Part shown: positions 3,012 through 8,923 of the stretch, piece after piece | How positions within the stretch are numbered: the stretch's first letter is position 1 | Layout of the letters: each line of letters starts with the position of its first letter | Origin: Lachnospiraceae bacterium | Lineage (GTDB): Bacteria > Bacillota_A > Clostridia > Lachnospirales > Lachnospiraceae | Assembly (NCBI GenBank): GCA_017996675.1 | Contig: JAGOGN010000052.1 | Span: forward strand, 1 to 9,231 | Direction: 5' to 3' | DNA length: 9,231 bases | Program-made: the position numbers and the translations under genes | The notes under the pieces: model-generated | The model's database searches: none | Seen by the model: only the letters and a program-made list of their open reading frames with translations | What the model was told of the DNA's origin: nothing

Positions 3012-3521
3012 ATGAAATATGATTATTATGAGAAAAAAATAAATGATGTGATAATGAAATGCCCTATTGAATCAGGGATTGAAATACTTGTTTACAATGT
3101 TCTTAACGAGGTTATTGATTCAACAAAATTGTCACTTGTAGACATTAATCGCCTTCGGAAAGATAGAGATTATAGATTGACTACAGATGGGGGAATAGCA
3201 GATATAGCTGTTCTTTCGGAAGACTTTGAATACCGCACAGATGTTGGAACAGTCTATGGATTTATTGAAGTGAAGGCAACAAATGAGCTACTTTCAGTAA
3301 CGGGACAAATTGAAGGTCAAAAAAAAGATATTGTTCATTATATATACACCAACGGATTAGCTTGGAAATATTATAAAGATGGAGAGATTAATTGGGAAAT
3401 TGTATTATCTTATGATGAAAATCAAGCATGTTCAGTATTGAGAGAACCTAAAAGGATATCAATAGATTCAAAGAAATTTGATACTTTGATTGATGAACTC
3501 AAAAAAATTAACTGGTTCTAA
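3012..3521 (+). CDS. PD-(D/E)XK nuclease-fold protein (HsdR N-terminal-like domain)
   Basis: This 169-aa protein resembles the stand-alone N-terminal nuclease domain of type I restriction HsdR subunits. A helix bearing E20 and E24 comes first, then GGIADIAVLSEDFEYR with the metal-binding D64, then YGFIEVKA with E86 and K88. A helix with Q99 and Q103 (TGQIEGQKK) matches the QxxxQ motif that follows the core in this family. No helicase domain follows, so this is not a full restriction subunit. The ribosome binding site is weak (GATGAGG, 2997-3003, 8 bases before ATG). The frame is also open upstream to 2838 without an ATG or GTG, encoding acidic residues (LLEDTSDDSICLFDEDEAIG) that look like true coding sequence. 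The original start may therefore have lain in or beyond the 2530 gene. The role could be element defence, competition with other mobile DNA, or a non-cutting DNA-binding use of the fold. Cutting activity is inferred only from the motif. Confidence 0.75.
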   Translation: MKYDYYEKKINDVIMKCPIESGIEILVYNVLNEVIDSTKLSLVDINRLRKDRDYRLTTDGGIADIAVLSEDFEYRTDVGTVYGFIEVKATNELLSVTGQIEGQKKDIVHYIYTNGLAWKYYKDGEINWEIVLSYDENQACSVLREPKRISIDSKKFDTLIDELKKINWF

Positions 3522-3581
3522 GATAATCAACACTAATCTCAAGTAAAATAGATTTCTAAAAATTAAATATGGATGGATAAG

Positions 3582-3614
3582 CGATTAGAGATAAAAATCT
3601 AGTCGTTTTTTTTT
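3582..3614 (+). terminator. Terminator or attenuator hairpin before repA
   Basis: CGATTAGA (3582-3589) pairs with TCTAGTCG (3598-3605), 8 bp with one T-G wobble, around loop GATAAAAA. Nine T residues follow (3606-3614). It may end transcription of the cargo genes. It also sits directly before repA with no evident promoter in between, so repA would depend on read-through or on an unseen promoter. A tiny ORF (ATG GAT GGA TAA, 3569-3580) ends two bases before the left arm. The ssb leader has the same arrangement. Confidence 0.75.
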
Positions 3615-3639: not shown

Positions 3640-4401
3640 GTGGAATTTGAATATTACCACAACAATGATGGTGATCAGTTTCGATATATTCAGTTGCCAA
3701 CCATCTTGTTAGAACATGAATATTTTTCTGGTTTATCTTTGGAAGCCATCGTCTTGTATTCCATGATGCTTAACCGAATAAGTTTGTCATTTAGGAACGG
3801 TTGGATTGATGAGCACTCAAGAGTATATATCTATTTCACATTGGAAGAGGTCATGAAGAAGCTTAGATGCAAATCACAAAAAGCAACGAAGATTATAGCT
3901 GAACTTGATGTAGATAAAGGTATAGGACTGATTGAGAGGAAAAGGCAAGGTCTTGGAAAGCCGACAATTATTTATGTGAAAAACTTTATGAGTATTTTCA
4001 AGAATAAAGACTATGGAAAAACAGAAGTCCAGACTAGTGAAAATCAAAACTCTGTAACTTTGAAAAACAGAAGTCCTGACTGCGGTAAATCAAAATCTAA
4101 CTATATAGATATTAGTGAACCTGATTTAAGAAAGAATGATATGAGGAGTGACACCTCCCTTTTTGGATTATTTCAAAATGTCATTTTAACTCAAGAAGAC
4201 TATGAAGAACTCTCAAGAACGATTGTTGAAGACCTAGATGGTTTGATAGACAGGCTATCAGCCTACATGACTTCAACAGGAAAGACCTATAAGAGCCATA
4301 AAGCAACGCTTTTATCCTGGCACTTACAGGATGAAAAGAAATTTAAAAAGAAATCAACCGTACTTAGCTACGATGATTATGACAAAGGAGAACACTTGTG
4401 A
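3640..4401 (+). CDS. repA: Replication initiator RepA, RepA_N family
   Basis: This 253-aa protein initiates plasmid-like replication, presumably of the excised circular element. The RepA_N domain spans about residues 3-115: FRYIQLPTILLEHEYFSGLSLEAIVLYSMMLNR, then YIYFTLEEVMKKLRCKSQKATKIIAELD, then GLIERKRQGLGKPTIIYVKNF. This is a winged-helix type DNA-binding domain. A polar linker (about 125-175) follows. The C-terminal part (LTQEDYEELSRTIVEDLDGLIDRLSAYM, then YKSHKATLLSWHLQDEKK) resembles the DnaD-like helicase-loading segment seen in these initiators. The start is GTG 3640, six bases after AAAGGAGG (3626-3633). The stop TGA at 4399-4401 overlaps the next gene's start, so translation of the DnaC-like ATPase is probably coupled. 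The leader carries a hairpin and T-run at 3582-3614. Confidence 0.9.
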   Translation: MEFEYYHNNDGDQFRYIQLPTILLEHEYFSGLSLEAIVLYSMMLNRISLSFRNGWIDEHSRVYIYFTLEEVMKKLRCKSQKATKIIAELDVDKGIGLIERKRQGLGKPTIIYVKNFMSIFKNKDYGKTEVQTSENQNSVTLKNRSPDCGKSKSNYIDISEPDLRKNDMRSDTSLFGLFQNVILTQEDYEELSRTIVEDLDGLIDRLSAYMTSTGKTYKSHKATLLSWHLQDEKKFKKKSTVLSYDDYDKGEHL

Positions 4402-5231
4402 TGAGTGAAATGAAGAAAATTAGAATGGGAGAAGCAAGTTTTAACTACTCTCCAGAAACAGCCTATGAGAAAAACGGCAATGTCTATTGCAACACATGCC
4501 ATGAACAGATTAATGGCGAAGTAGTCAATATGATGGGCACTTGGATGTGTTTCAGAATTCAGTGCCAGTGTGAAAAGGAAGAAGAAAAAAGATGGAAAGA
4601 ACGGGAGCGAGTAATGCGGGTAAATCAATTAAAGGACACTTGTTTTACTAATCCTAAACAAAGAAACTACACGCTAGATAAATGTCTTATCAGTAATGAA
4701 AAAACAATCGGTGTTGTTTCTAACTACATTAAGAAATTCGATGAGGTAAGAAAAAAGAATGTGGGTCTTCTCTTCTTTGGTGAAGTTGGTAGCGGTAAAA
4801 GCTATCTGGCCGCAGCGATAGCAAATGCAGTGATGGAAGAATATGAAATCACCTGTAAGATGCGAAACTTCTCCCAGATTATCAATGACTTGCAGTCAGG
4901 CGGATTCGACCTAGACAAAAACAGATATATTGATTCACTGGTCAGAACACCACTTCTTATCCTTGATGATTTAGGGATTGAGAGAAATACACCATACGCT
5001 TTAGAACAAGTCTACAACATCATCAATGGTCGAAGTTTACAAGGCTTACCAACCATAATTACTACCAATTTAAGTCTTGAAGATATCAAGAATCACACAG
5101 AAAGCATCGAGCTAAAGAGAATTTATTCCAGAGTTCTAGAGATGTGTATTCCCGTTCTAGTGAGTGGAGCAGATATCAGAGAACAGATTCATAAAAAGAA
5201 AATACAAGAATCAAGAGAGTTGCTCTTGTAG
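4401..5231 (+). CDS. DnaC/IstB-like AAA+ ATPase, helicase loader
   Basis: This 276-aa ATPase probably loads the host replicative helicase at the RepA-opened origin. An N-terminal cysteine cluster (CNTC near residues 30-33, then C50, C55 and C57 in MCFRIQCQC) looks like a zinc-binding site. The AAA+ core follows: Walker A GEVGSGKS (127-134), Walker B LLILDD (185-190), and a sensor-type TIITTNLS (218-225). The C-terminal REQIHKKK is typical of DnaC-like proteins. Two starts are possible: GTG 4398 (7 bases after AAAGGAG, 4384-4390) or ATG 4401 (10 bases after). I chose the ATG because it is the stronger codon, and the difference is one residue. The start overlaps the repA stop, so the pair is a replication module. 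Its stop overlaps the ribosome binding site of the next gene. Confidence 0.9.
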   Translation: MSEMKKIRMGEASFNYSPETAYEKNGNVYCNTCHEQINGEVVNMMGTWMCFRIQCQCEKEEEKRWKERERVMRVNQLKDTCFTNPKQRNYTLDKCLISNEKTIGVVSNYIKKFDEVRKKNVGLLFFGEVGSGKSYLAAAIANAVMEEYEITCKMRNFSQIINDLQSGGFDLDKNRYIDSLVRTPLLILDDLGIERNTPYALEQVYNIINGRSLQGLPTIITTNLSLEDIKNHTESIELKRIYSRVLEMCIPVLVSGADIREQIHKKKIQESRELLL

Positions 5232-5243
5232 GAGGTGATAAAC

Positions 5244-5732
5244 ATGATTAACGAAGAAACTAGTAATAAGACCTTGCACATGGAAATGCAAGCAGCAAAA
5301 GTAACTGCAAAGGGAATACAAAAACTGTTAAAGGATCTCATGCAAAAGCTAGACCAACAGAAGCAGAGCCTTGATAGTTATCTAAAAAGTTCCTCAAAGG
5401 AAGTCACCATGAAAGATATGGTGAAAAAGGGGCAACTGGAAGAATTAGAGGTTAAAGATTGTGACCTAAAGGAACTGAAAAAAGAACTCAATAAAAATGG
5501 AGTGAAGTTTTCAGTGATGAAAGATAAGGAAACAGGAAATCACTCGGTATTCTTTCAAGCGAAAGATACGGCTGTTATGGAAAAGGCATTTCGTAATACC
5601 TTAGCCACTGTTGAGAAAAAGGAAGCGAAGAAAGATTCTGTGATTCAATCAATCGATAAATATAAACAAGCGATGAAAGATACTGTCACGAAGGATAAGG
5701 TGAAAAATAAGCAAAAGGAGCAAAGTCTATGA
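5244..5732 (+). CDS. pcfB: PcfB family protein (DUF3801), relaxosome accessory
   Basis: Members of this family, named after PcfB of plasmid pCF10, help assemble the relaxosome at oriT and link it to the coupling protein. This 162-aa protein begins MINEETSNKTLHMEMQAAKV, with a long N-terminal helical region (about 10-50) rich in K, Q and L and likely coiled coil. A compact domain follows (ELEVKDCDLKELKKELNKNG, then VKFSVMKDKETGNHSVFFQAKD), then a Lys-rich tail. I chose ATG 5244 because GGAGG (5231-5235) lies 8 bases upstream; an in-frame GTG at 5235 lies inside that site. It sits between the replication genes and the antirepressor and coupling genes. Its stop overlaps the next ATG (ATGA). Confidence 0.85.
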   Translation: MINEETSNKTLHMEMQAAKVTAKGIQKLLKDLMQKLDQQKQSLDSYLKSSSKEVTMKDMVKKGQLEELEVKDCDLKELKKELNKNGVKFSVMKDKETGNHSVFFQAKDTAVMEKAFRNTLATVEKKEAKKDSVIQSIDKYKQAMKDTVTKDKVKNKQKEQSL

Positions 5733-6478
5733 GAGAAAATCAAATACAACAATTTCAGAATCAACATTTTGGAAAGCTCACTGTCATAGAAATTGATAGT
5801 GAGTTTTTCTTTATAGGAAAAGAAGTCGCAGAACTACTGGGATACAAAAATGGTAGCAGAGATGTAAATCGGCATGTTGATGAAGAAGATCGGTGCATAT
5901 TTCAAAACTACCAAAACGGTACTTTTGAAAATATACCAAATAGAGGAGTAACCATTATCAACGAATCAGGACTTTATAGCTTGATTTTGTTATCAAAGCT
6001 TCCGAGTGCAAAAGCTTTTAAACACTGGGTGACGAAAGAAGTTTTACCAAGCATTCGAAAACATGGTGGTTATATTGGAAATCAAGAAAATAAATCAAAT
6101 GAAGAAATTCTTGCCAGTGCAGTCCTTGTTGCTCAAAGGGTAATTCAGGAAAAAGAACAAGTAATCGAGCAGTTAAAACCAAAAGCAGATTACTATGATC
6201 AGCTAGTGAGTCAAAATCTTTTAACGAACCTAAGAAACACAGCAAAGGAGCTAAAAATTCCACAAAATAAATTCATTGCGTTTTTACTGGAAAACAAATA
6301 TATCTATCGAGATAAGTATGAAAGGCTTCTTCCCTATGCACAAAAGAACAAGGGCTATTTCGAGATTAAAGAGTGGTACAACTTCTATAATGATTTAGTT
6401 GGGATTCAAACCATGGTAACACCAAAAGGTCGGGAGCATTTTCTGATTCTGACTGGAGGTGATGTCACTTGTGACTAG
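5729..6478 (+). CDS. Phage-type antirepressor with BRO-N and KilAC domains
   Basis: This 249-aa protein has two domains. The BRO N-terminal domain covers about residues 13-113: FGKLTVIEIDSEFFFIGKEV, AELLGYKNGSRDVNRHV, ESGLYSLILLSKLPSAKAFK and WVTKEVLPSIRKHGGYI. The C-terminal antirepressor (KilAC/ANT-like) domain covers about 150-245: LKPKADYYDQLV, then TAKELKIPQNKFIAFLLENKYIYRD, ending TPKGREHFLI. Such proteins bind DNA or block phage repressors. In this element family it is a regular backbone gene between pcfB and virD4, so it probably controls element gene expression or copy state; its direct target is not visible here. The start ATG 5729 overlaps the pcfB stop and lies 8 bases after AAAAGGAG (5713-5720). 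The end overlaps the virD4 start region. Confidence 0.88.
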   Translation: MRENQIQQFQNQHFGKLTVIEIDSEFFFIGKEVAELLGYKNGSRDVNRHVDEEDRCIFQNYQNGTFENIPNRGVTIINESGLYSLILLSKLPSAKAFKHWVTKEVLPSIRKHGGYIGNQENKSNEEILASAVLVAQRVIQEKEQVIEQLKPKADYYDQLVSQNLLTNLRNTAKELKIPQNKFIAFLLENKYIYRDKYERLLPYAQKNKGYFEIKEWYNFYNDLVGIQTMVTPKGREHFLILTGGDVTCD

Positions 6479-8255
6479 TAAAATACCTCAAGATATAAAG
6501 TCTGTATTTATCGGGCAGGATTGGAAGAAACTACTGAAAGTAAACATTGCATATCTTGCCTTTTTCTATGTCGGTAATATCTTTTCAGCTCATGTAAGAG
6601 CCTACCAAGGTGGCGATATCATTGACCGAATTATGACTGCAATCGTAGAACTGGAGACAATGAAGTTTATTCCTAGTTTTCATCCAAATGATTTACTAAT
6701 TGGCATAGCTGTTGCTGGTCTCATGAAGTTCATCGTTTACACCAAAGGTAAGAAAGCGAAGAAGTTTCGAGAAGGAAAAGAGTATGGCTCTGCTAGATGG
6801 GGAAACGCTAAAGACATCAAACCTTATATTGATGAAAAGTACGATAACAATGTGCTCTTTACCAACACGGAGCGTCTCACCATGAATGGTAGACCCAGTA
6901 ATCCCAAATATGCCAGAAATAAGAATGTACTGGTAATCGGTGGTTCAGGTTCAGGTAAAACAAGATTCTTTGTAAAACCAAATCTCATGCAGATGCATTC
7001 TTCCTATGTGGTGACAGACCCGAAAGGCACGATTGTCTTAGAGTGCGGAAAGATGCTTGAAGAAAATGGTTATGAGATAAAAATCCTTAATACCATCAAT
7101 TTTAAGAAAAGCATGAAGTACAATCCATTTGCTTATCTGAAAAGCGAAAAAGACATCTTAAAACTGGTTCAAACGATTATCGCTAATACCAAGGGCGAAG
7201 GAGAAAAGGCGGGTGAAGACTTCTGGGTCAAGGCGGAAAAGTTGTATTACACAGCCCTTATTGGCTACATCTACTATGAAGCTCCAAGAGAAGAAAAGAA
7301 CTTCAAGACGCTTCTGGATATGATTGATGCTTCTGAAGTTCGTGAAGATGATGAAAGCTATATGAACCCAATTGATCGGCTATTTGAAGCCTTAGAAAAG
7401 AAACGCCCTACCCATTTTGCAGTGAAGCAGTATAAGAAATACAAGCTTGCAGCAGGAAAAACAGCAAAGAGTATTCTCATCTCATGTGGTGCAAGGCTCG
7501 CTCCCTTTGATATTGAAGAGTTAAGGGAGTTGATGAGTGAAGATGAAATGGCACTTGATACCATCGGTGATAAGAAGACTGCACTCTTTGTCATTATTTC
7601 AGATACGGATGACACCTTTAATTTCGTAGTTTCTATCATGTATTCTCAACTCTTTAATCTACTGTGTGATAAAGCAGATGATGTGTATGGAGGCAGACTT
7701 CCTGTGCATGTTCGATTCTTACTAGATGAGTTTGCAAATATCGGGTTAATCCCAAAATTTGAAAAGCTGATTGCAACCATTCGTTCAAGAGAAATTTCAG
7801 CAAGCATCATCTTGCAATCACAATCTCAGCTCAAAGCCATCTACAAAGATCATGCAGATACCATCATTGGTAACTGTGATAGCACTTTGTTCCTTGGTGG
7901 AAAAGAGAAAACGACACTCAAAGAACTCTCTGAAACACTGGGGAAAGAAACTATTGACCTTTATAACACATCGGAAACCAGAAGCAATCAAAAGTCCTTT
8001 GGTCTTAACTATCAGAAAGTTGGTAAAGAGCTGATGAGCCAAGATGAAATAACAGTGATGGATGGTGGAAAATGCATCTTTCAGTTAAGAGGGGTCCGCC
8101 CATTCTTGTCAGATAAATTTGATATCACCAAGCACAAGAACTATAAGCTCTTGGAGGATTACGATAAGAAAAATTTATTTGATGTAGAGAAGTATATGAA
8201 GCGAGTCGGTAAGGCAAAGGTCACAGCCAATACAAAGTTAAACACCATAAGCTGA
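6471..8255 (+). CDS. virD4: VirD4/TraG-type coupling protein (type IV secretion ATPase)
   Basis: This inner-membrane ATPase carries the relaxase-DNA complex to the conjugation channel. In 594 aa it has two N-terminal membrane segments (about 24-40 VNIAYLAFFYVGNIF and 74-90 LLIGIAVAGLMKFIVY), then YGSARWG (105-111), which is typical of VirD4 proteins. Walker A GGSGSGKT is at 157-164, followed by VVTDPKG, and Walker B FLLDEF is at 416-421, followed by ANIG. The later ILQSQSQLKAIY is the conserved motif-3 region of this family. The start is uncertain. GTG 6471 lies 11 bases after GGAGG (6455-6459). In-frame ATG 6462 is only 2 bases after it and GTG 6459 overlaps it, so I prefer 6471. The start overlaps the antirepressor gene, so translation is probably coupled. 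Length and motifs match complete family members. Confidence 0.93.
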   Translation: MTSKIPQDIKSVFIGQDWKKLLKVNIAYLAFFYVGNIFSAHVRAYQGGDIIDRIMTAIVELETMKFIPSFHPNDLLIGIAVAGLMKFIVYTKGKKAKKFREGKEYGSARWGNAKDIKPYIDEKYDNNVLFTNTERLTMNGRPSNPKYARNKNVLVIGGSGSGKTRFFVKPNLMQMHSSYVVTDPKGTIVLECGKMLEENGYEIKILNTINFKKSMKYNPFAYLKSEKDILKLVQTIIANTKGEGEKAGEDFWVKAEKLYYTALIGYIYYEAPREEKNFKTLLDMIDASEVREDDESYMNPIDRLFEALEKKRPTHFAVKQYKKYKLAAGKTAKSILISCGARLAPFDIEELRELMSEDEMALDTIGDKKTALFVIISDTDDTFNFVVSIMYSQLFNLLCDKADDVYGGRLPVHVRFLLDEFANIGLIPKFEKLIATIRSREISASIILQSQSQLKAIYKDHADTIIGNCDSTLFLGGKEKTTLKELSETLGKETIDLYNTSETRSNQKSFGLNYQKVGKELMSQDEITVMDGGKCIFQLRGVRPFLSDKFDITKHKNYKLLEDYDKKNLFDVEKYMKRVGKAKVTANTKLNTIS

Positions 8256-8275
8256 TTCAGGAGAAAGGAGCTTAA

Positions 8276-8329
8276 ATGAAGAGGATAAGAAGTCCCACTA
8301 AAAATTTAATAGCAGAATGTATCAGTTAA
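8276..8329 (+). CDS. 17-codon leader peptide upstream of ssb-like gene
   Basis: ATG 8276 to TAA 8327-8329 encodes MKRIRSPTKNLIAECIS. A strong ribosome binding site AAAGGAG (8264-8270) lies 5 bases upstream, as good as that of any large gene here. The last two bases of the stop codon are the first two of the following terminator-like stem. A ribosome finishing or stalling near the stop would therefore cover the 5' arm and favour read-through into ssb. The peptide is basic at its start and matches nothing I can name. The layout is that of a regulatory leader, as in tet(M)-type or erm-type leaders, but the inducing signal is not evident. Confidence 0.5.
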   Translation: MKRIRSPTKNLIAECIS

Positions 8330-8366
8330 GCGATTGAAAGAGAAAGAAATCTTCCAGTCGCTTTTT
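8328..8366 (+). terminator. Terminator or attenuator hairpin in the ssb leader
   Basis: AAGCGATTGAAAGA (8328-8341) pairs with TCTTCCAGTCGCTT (8350-8363), a 14-bp stem with one T-G wobble and one A-C mismatch, around loop GAAAGAAA. A T-run at 8362-8366 follows. It lies inside what is otherwise one run of co-directional transfer genes. As a full terminator it would cut off ssb, maff2 and the VirB6-like gene, so partial or regulated termination is more likely. The left arm begins AAGCGATT and the right arm ends AGTCGC, shared with the hairpin before repA (GCGATT and AGTCG). Confidence 0.75.
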
Positions 8367-8396
8367 AAATTTCAAAGAAAACAGGAGAAAAGATAA

Positions 8397-8708
8397 ATGG
8401 AAATGAATTTAGAGATGATTAACATCAACGCAAACCTAGTTAAAGAACCAGTCTTTAGTAGTTTTGAGAAAAACGGAGAAACCATTGAAGTGGTGAACTT
8501 CACTTTGGTCAAAAGCTATGGCAAGGACAAAGAATATACCAATTGCTCAGCCTATGGCGAGAAGGTAGAGCTTGCAAGAGAGCTTAGACCAGGCGATTTC
8601 GTTCATGTCTTTGGTTACTTCAAAGAGAGGGTCAAGGGCGATAAGACCTATAAAAATTTCATCGTCAAATCATATAACAAAATCACAGAAAACAAGGAGG
8701 AAGAATAA
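8397..8708 (+). CDS. Single-stranded DNA-binding (SSB-like OB-fold) protein
   Basis: This 103-aa protein looks like a short SSB: MININANLVKEPVFSSF, then VVNFTLVKSYGKDKEYTNCSAYGEKVELARELRPGDFVHVFGYFKERV, then KTYKNFIVKSYNKI. These are the OB-fold strands in SSB order, with the WNVVAFG-type strand replaced by CSAYGEKVE. It lacks the long disordered acidic-tip tail of host SSB and ends in a short acidic run, NKEEE. It probably coats single-stranded element DNA during transfer or replication. The start ATG 8397 lies 8 bases after AGGAGA (8383-8388); an in-frame ATG at 8403 is less well placed. Its stop TAA overlaps the next ATG. Expression is probably controlled by the leader ORF and hairpin upstream. 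Confidence 0.8.
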   Translation: MEMNLEMININANLVKEPVFSSFEKNGETIEVVNFTLVKSYGKDKEYTNCSAYGEKVELARELRPGDFVHVFGYFKERVKGDKTYKNFIVKSYNKITENKEEE

Positions 8709-8923
8709 TGGGATTTTTTGTAGAAGGCGTTAACGTATTAAAAACCTTAGTCATGGCACTAGGAGCAGGTCTTGGAGCATGGGGCGTTATCAATCTTATG
8801 GAAGGTTACGGGAATGATAACCCTGGTGCAAAGTCACAAGGTATTAAACAGCTAATGGCTGGTGGAGGTATCACACTGATTGCAATGAAACTTATTCCAC
8901 TACTTGCAGATGTATTGAACTAA
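8708..8923 (+). CDS. Maff2 family small membrane protein
   Basis: This 71-aa protein has two hydrophobic segments: about residues 10-30 (VLKTLVMALGAGLGAWGVIN) and about 46-70 (LMAGGGITLIAMKLIPLLADV). A short polar loop with NDNPGAKSQG joins them. This is the Maff2 pattern regularly found just before the VirB6/CD0411-like gene in Tn1549-type elements. The size and double-helix layout are like VirB2/TrbC pilin-type channel subunits, so a pore or pilus-like role in the type IV secretion system is likely but inferred. The ribosome binding site AAGGAGG (8694-8700) lies 7 bases before ATG 8708, which overlaps the ssb stop. Confidence 0.82.
   Translation: MGFFVEGVNVLKTLVMALGAGLGAWGVINLMEGYGNDNPGAKSQGIKQLMAGGGITLIAMKLIPLLADVLN

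Follow-up and report, generated by a model that had tools for sequence, protein, structure and literature searches.

A conserved MxRIR[S/A]PT leader frame and terminator-like hairpin preceding ssb and maff2 in a mobile-element family: a candidate ribosome-arrest leader

Between virD4 and an ssb-like gene in a 9,231-nucleotide stretch of DNA from a Lachnospiraceae bacterium (hereafter the window) lies a short reading frame whose first eight residues, with the core MxRIR[S/A]PT, are strongly kept in related mobile elements. By analogy with known arrest leaders, we hold the chances to be evenly balanced that this stretch is a ribosome-arrest regulatory leader for the ssb-maff2-T4SS operon; in it a Shine-Dalgarno (SD) sequence is followed by the short frame with its core, an AU box and T2, a terminator-like hairpin.

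Genomic setting and selection on the leader peptide

The window carries VirD4 of the CD1115 family, Maff2 and RepA_N, a gene set of the kind found in what we take to be Tn1549-type elements, a name carried over from the original prediction. The virD4 gene, which encodes the coupling protein (6459..8255, plus strand; NF045973, 581 bits against a cut-off of 250; Pfam T4SS-DNA_transf), ends in a TGA at 8253-8255 directly upstream of the leader. The first gene after T2 (8397..8708, plus strand) is annotated in relatives as single-stranded DNA-binding protein; its NCBIfam match, to PRK05813, reaches only E 0.0069, well short of the family cut-off, and it has neither a Pfam nor a solved-structure match. 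It is followed by maff2 (8708..8923, plus strand; Pfam PF12750, E 2.4e-37), and in four annotated relatives the pair leads into genes for VirB6-like, PrgI, VirB4-like and peptidase proteins. The closest ssb is that of a Granulicatella seriolae locus (L009), which is 93.3% identical to the window over 5.7 kb, and the hosts of the element family include many Bacillota, among them streptococci, Peptoniphilus, Anaerococcus and Lachnospiraceae.

As originally predicted, a 17-codon frame led by an SD sequence precedes ssb: the frame, MKRIRSPTKNLIAECIS (8276..8329, plus strand), runs from an ATG at 8276-8278 to a TAA at 8327-8329, and its SD sequence AAGGAG (8265..8270, plus strand) is retained in the alignment of relatives. 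Conservation of the frame, which the original prediction had left to an alignment, is borne out by its core, codons 3-8 encoding R-I-R-S-P-T (8282..8299, plus strand). For the ssb alignment 117 relatives were drawn from a genome collection, and the best 80 of the 117 were kept, representing 79 distinct loci; these, the window and four plasmid loci make up a set of 84. The core, written as [R/N]-I-R-[S/A/N]-P-T, was found 61-124 nt upstream of ssb in 82 of the 84 loci (77 with an earlier, narrower expression), tallies that are conditional on the expression, which fixes I4, R5, P7 and T8. In one of the two exceptions, L078, the leader and hairpin lie 1.9 kb upstream of ssb with an insert between them, and in the other, L084, the end of the contig cuts the locus. 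R-I-R is present in 80 of 81 tallied leaders and N-I-R in one; the L096 leader, MIRNRSPT, has R-N-R, so position 4 can vary. R-[S/A/N]-P-T is found in 78 of 82 leaders, R-A-P-P being confined to four loci of a Streptococcus suis type. Where a stop codon was seen the leader has 8-43 residues; three of the 82 have none within 60 codons. A match to MIRAPT in L007, where no SD sequence was visible by eye, was taken as chance.

The pattern of codon changes, counted by parsimony on an ssb-maff2 tree for 81 of the 82 loci (L044, with masked bases, was omitted), differs sharply between the core and what follows it. Codons 3-8 have undergone 44 synonymous and 8 non-synonymous changes, seven of the latter at the S/A/N position, against a null in which 13 of the 54 possible single-base changes are synonymous, whereas the six codons past Thr8 show 9 synonymous and 144 non-synonymous changes. 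Most often, in 43 of 81 loci, the frame stops immediately past Thr8. Recombination among elements could distort these counts, but hardly the contrast between core and downstream codons. Among the 39 aligned leaders third codon positions are the most variable, and frame 0 is the sole frame open throughout all 39. Because codons 3-8 are constrained, and given the changes after Thr8, it is the peptide up to Thr8 that matters, and not the residues after it; selection at the amino-acid level on the core likewise indicates that the leader is translated.

A search with the core DNA pattern matched 45 of 50 genomes drawn from the ssb loci (50 of the 79 loci given). Among 395 genomes sharing an order with the S. 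oralis genome it matched 6; among 391 from the same class as the Lacrimispora genome, 18, three of them resembling chance; and among 130 from the family that includes an Anaerococcus genome, 64. Reversed-pattern controls in the four sets matched 0, 0, 1 and 1 genomes, respectively; the sets of pattern loci overlap one another, and the counts are not independent. All 30 pattern loci from the 50-genome set precede ssb (29 by regular expression; L144 is the L010 locus), the source genomes having been chosen for possessing such an ssb. Among 37 further loci, 29 precede ssb by regular expression and L169 by eye, L184 has an intron-like interruption and six are without ssb. The leader is retained in the absence of ssb in L165, L186 and L198; the matches in L166, L171 and L179, with neither an SD sequence nor ssb in view, were taken as chance. 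Of 45 maff2 loci fetched, 42 could be placed and three could not; counted irrespective of ssb, seven of the placed loci carry R-x-R-[S/N]-P-T, one (L098) a weak look-alike, and 34 neither. The retention of the core amid varying later codons would also suit an octapeptide acting in trans as a micro-protein, but with a mere eight residues, no secretion signal visible by eye and a position directly preceding ssb in 30 of 30 loci, we consider such a function extremely improbable.

The T2 hairpin, the leader stop codon and the AU box

T2 (8328..8366, plus strand), a putative terminator, comprises 13 pairs (9 + 4) between 8328 and 8363, with one A-C mismatch, a loop of 8 nt and a run of five T at 8362-8366, and its T-run ends 30 nt short of the ssb ATG at 8397. 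The hairpin and T-run were correctly foreseen; the stem length of 14 bp and the distance of 31 bases given with them are here revised to these values. Folding of the 43-nt hairpin yields -15.2 kcal/mol (z = -4.58, equalled by 0 of 200 shuffles), and the whole 151-nt leader region folds unremarkably (z = -1.16). A simple terminator scan did not list T2; its stable hairpin and T-run are those of an intrinsic terminator, and on these features it is predicted to terminate transcription. In 39 aligned sequences 98.2% of the stem cells are paired, and in all 71 leader loci that have a T-run (of 75 distinct loci) the run is preceded by a hairpin folding at between -8.5 and -16.2 kcal/mol; in L010 this position is occupied by a hairpin of different sequence. 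Covariation is slim: one pair swaps G-C for A-U in 15 of the 39 sequences, and one of ten pairs is changed on both sides. The covarying stem envisaged at the outset finds support in the covariation score and the tally of changed cells, both of which exceed all 500 shuffles, and not in the count of both-side changes, which 403 of the 500 matched.

The original prediction held that a ribosome at the leader stop codon would cover the 5' arm of the hairpin, such that translation of the leader blocks termination. The window itself fits this model, in that the last two bases of the TAA at 8327-8329 do open the stem, which starts at 8328; the stop also contacts the stem in the close relative L009, in L003 and in L058, and lies inside the arm in L080. 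Nevertheless, these five are the only such cases among 82 leaders: in 57 the stop falls 7-33 nt upstream of T2, in 16 the frame continues through the hairpin and in four the hairpin is absent. Leader stops range from +24 to beyond the hairpin, their position being free and bearing no sign of constraint. As the stop touches the stem in so few leaders, a ribosome parked there cannot be the shared signal, and we regard this model as highly unlikely. The distance from the leader ATG to the T2 stem is near-fixed, at 49-53 nt in 74 of the 78 hairpin-bearing leaders and 56-60 nt in the other four.

In 62 of the 75 distinct loci another terminator-like hairpin precedes the leader and ends 16-27 nt short of its ATG; none was found at this position in the window. 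In L032, L069 and L078 the virD4 stop codon lies within the 5' arm of this upstream hairpin (GCAGTAAGTC...GATTTGCTGC), as does the stop of another gene in L012, an arrangement with the geometry first proposed for the leader.

Several other modes of control were considered and set aside. RNAalifold recovered the T2 helix and no second helix from the 39-row alignment, and 20 leaders folded whole, truncated or with a stalled footprint masked displayed no shared alternative (antiterminator) pairing; with T2 the only shared structure in both analyses, classical attenuation by competing hairpins was rejected. A GGAU...GUCC hairpin within the leader codons was discarded as synonymous changes break it, by eye, in some relatives. 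With two Arg codons only in the leader core and no alternative hairpin, an amino-acid operon attenuator of the trp/his type was likewise dismissed. The RNA polymerase pause motif TTNTTT does not occur in the initial 80 nt of any of the 75 distinct leaders, and an Rfam scan to E 1 left 8264-8396 without a match.

The remaining shared element, the AU box ATTTAATA (8304..8311, plus strand; defined as A-N-T-W-AATA), is present in 34 of the 39 aligned leaders, its first match starting at +31 to +34 in 26 of the 34. In the window it stands 16 nt from the stem, and mostly 11-12 nt in relatives; the strict box is absent from five of the 39, and L012 is among those in which it stands farther downstream. 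The definition was drawn up once the leaders had been seen and was then fixed for three other gene families, at whose terminators the box recurs: 11 of 16 distinct regions upstream of repA (0.5 expected by shuffles), five of seven hairpin-bearing regions upstream of relaxase genes (0.18 expected; seven more distinct regions have no hairpin) and 6 of 15 upstream of mobC-like genes (0.4 expected). Seven of the 38 hairpin-bearing regions belonged to the loci from which the box was first recognised; omitting these leaves 8 of 13, two of four and 5 of 14, and sequence kinship inflates the counts further. After removal of duplicates, the box was detected at 27 of 250 non-T2 terminators on the plus strand (6.1 expected) and at 0 of 136 on the minus strand, which rules out its being a feature of every terminator. 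By these counts the box belongs to several terminators of the element family, and not to the leader alone.

Its recurrence before the repA, relaxase and mobC-like terminators is what would be expected if a factor encoded by the element acted on the AU box in processive or factor-dependent antitermination, with T2 as one of several targets and the leader merely adding to the effect. The low frequency of the box at other plus-strand terminators and its absence from minus-strand ones speak against such a factor, and the constraint on the peptide would be left unexplained; this alternative is in our view unlikely. A second AU box with a terminator-like module (3562..3614, plus strand; z = -4.67) lies upstream of the RepA_N gene of the window and has no leader core. 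Positions 3546-3613 give a weak match to the Rfam small RNA SpF39 (36.8 bits against a gathering score of 60), whose consensus combines a AAUUUAAUA-like box with a hairpin of terminator type. This sub-gathering match is confined to the region upstream of repA and does not extend to the ssb leader; SpF39 might represent an attenuated leader transcript from such elements.

A proposed arrest mechanism and its relation to known leaders

In the arrest mechanism that we propose, the nascent M-x-R-I-R-S/A-P would stall the ribosome when Pro7 occupies the P site and the A site displays the Thr8 codon, a position chosen because the constraint stops at Thr8. The stall would probably require a ribosome-directed drug or another signal, drug-assisted arrest being likelier than intrinsic arrest given a chain of seven residues. 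Chloramphenicol and linezolid prefer Ala, Ser or Thr at the penultimate residue. The front edge of the stalled ribosome would lie at about +35, and the ribosome would hence stand at the AU box rather than at the hairpin and would alter the passage of the polymerase at T2; that it reaches the box and not the hairpin would explain both the freedom of the stop codon and the spacing. By analogy with the ErmK, MefA, TlrB and MsrD leaders, arrest should raise read-through and turn on ssb and the transfer-channel genes. The same footprint arithmetic, by which a ribosome at codon 7 stops short of the hairpin, counts against a link from arrest to T2, as do the lack of a shared antiterminator pairing in the folds and of TTNTTT in the leaders scanned. 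Were T2 governed by ribosome position alone, moreover, opposite responses would be expected from the 16 frames that run through the hairpin and the 57 that stop early. Translation-linked control of the ssb-maff2-T4SS operon, as first suggested, is thus made plausible by the conserved leader and terminator-like hairpin, if not through contact between stop codon and stem.

A mechanism acting through T2 leaves five loci unexplained. The four S. suis-type loci, L002 (13508-13585), L020, L023 and L067, encode MRIRAPPT, a perfect RAPP motif, and have no hairpin; their frames overlap the start of ssb in L002 and L023, enter ssb in L067 and end 13 nt upstream of it in L020. L169 keeps MLRIRSPTV, and its fold, at only -2.9 kcal/mol, is no proper T2 hairpin. 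These loci speak for an additional or separate function at the level of mRNA stability or translation. Taken as the sole function, an arrest peptide independent of T2, whereby a ribosome held near the 5' end shields the message from exonucleolytic decay or adjusts translation of ssb and T2 serves as a plain insulator, would account for them, and in the available part of one study a stalled ribosome is reported to protect mef(E) mRNA (PMC4335068). The presence of T2 at its near-fixed spacing from the ATG in 78 of 82 leaders, even where the hairpin differs in sequence (L010), counts against such a sole function, and we deem this explanation rather unlikely.

Among described systems, the proposed arrest leader resembles in motif the '+x+' macrolide leaders, which in the accessible portions of the literature include MefAL MTASMRLR and ErmDL MTHSMRLRFPTLNQ (PMC10314930) and the ErmK leader, given as MTHAMRLRFPTLNQ or MTHSMRLRFPTLNQ, with attenuation described for mef(E) and ermK (PMC4335068). 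Like those of the ErmD/ErmK and MefA/MsrA types, it is a short SD-led frame with Arg-X-Arg near the N terminus; RLRFPT of ErmK may be compared with RIRSPT here, and mef(E) also has a terminator before the gene. Unlike them, it precedes ssb and conjugation genes instead of a macrolide resistance gene, showed no antiterminator or mutually exclusive structures when folded, and is constrained as far as Pro7-Thr8, past the +x+ site. It may work like this class, of which it is a candidate member. The TlrB leader (yxjB, Bacillus subtilis), with RYR and transcription attenuation in the text available (PMC6851288), similarly places R-X-R before an attenuator, and for TlrB and MsrD the available passages describe direct obstruction of the terminator rather than mutually exclusive structures (PMC6851288, PMC10314930). 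In TlrB the stalled ribosome covers terminator bases and a polymerase pause is required, whereas in the ssb leader the footprint falls short of the hairpin and TTNTTT is lacking.

The R-[A/S]-P core is also shared with the RAPP/RGPP arrest peptides and SecM, and the S. suis type has RAPP itself. In the excerpted account of the RAP core, Arg is irreplaceable and Ala tolerates Gly and partly Ser (PMC12992588), a tolerance similar to that at R5, the small residue 6 and P7 of the leader. This raises the alternative of a drug-independent arrest of the RAPP/SecM type, with R-A/S-P in the P site, that senses the state of the cell or element. Outside the S. suis type, though, Thr fills the fourth position, where these peptides have an A-site Pro (or Gly); mutation of that Pro relieves ApdA/ApdP stalling in the part of that report available (PMC10951233). 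Furthermore, the chain before Thr8 has seven residues and the core occupies residues 2-8, away from the C terminus of any secretory or membrane protein such as is typical of the class. We therefore rate drug-independent arrest as distinctly unlikely.

A bolder version of our drug-assisted arrest proposal is that MxRIR[S/A]PT defines an undescribed class of arrest leader, combining the '+x+' macrolide motif with an R-A/S-P core, through which ribosome-targeting drugs would induce the ssb-T4SS operon in Tn1549-type elements with or without a resistance gene, by way of a ribosome parked on a terminator-associated AU box shared with repA and relaxase genes. We offer it tentatively and think it somewhat unlikely as a whole. 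The literature searched, with most subscription journals outside its coverage and papers available in part, yielded no mention of RIRSPT or account of the ssb leader. If the leader does arrest ribosomes, expression of the transfer channel would be tied to the state of the ribosome, and possibly to sub-inhibitory antibiotics. A precedent exists in Tn916, where, in the available text, attenuation exerts part of the control and inhibitors of translation lift it partially (PMC9154091); no equivalent account for the Tn1549-type family was found in the sources searched. The tet(M) leader of Tn916 (orf12) is comparable as a mobile-element attenuator with this partial relief, but Tn916 belongs to another element family, and its site is at tet(M) rather than before ssb-T4SS; the likeness drawn here is one of regulation.

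Cargo and intron-like insertions around the leader

The gap between virD4 and the leader resembles a cargo hotspot, its genes differing by relative (13790-14407 in L001, 13739-15253 in L003 and 13647-15669 in L004); the window has no cargo genes between virD4 and the ssb leader. Three ORFs of the window without Pfam or NCBIfam matches (1104-2375, 2497-2958 and 3012-3521), situated between a P5CR-domain ORF and repA, are possible cargo. In L078 (about 4145-5975) and L184 a group II intron-like insert is located immediately after the T-run of T2; class C introns insert at terminators.
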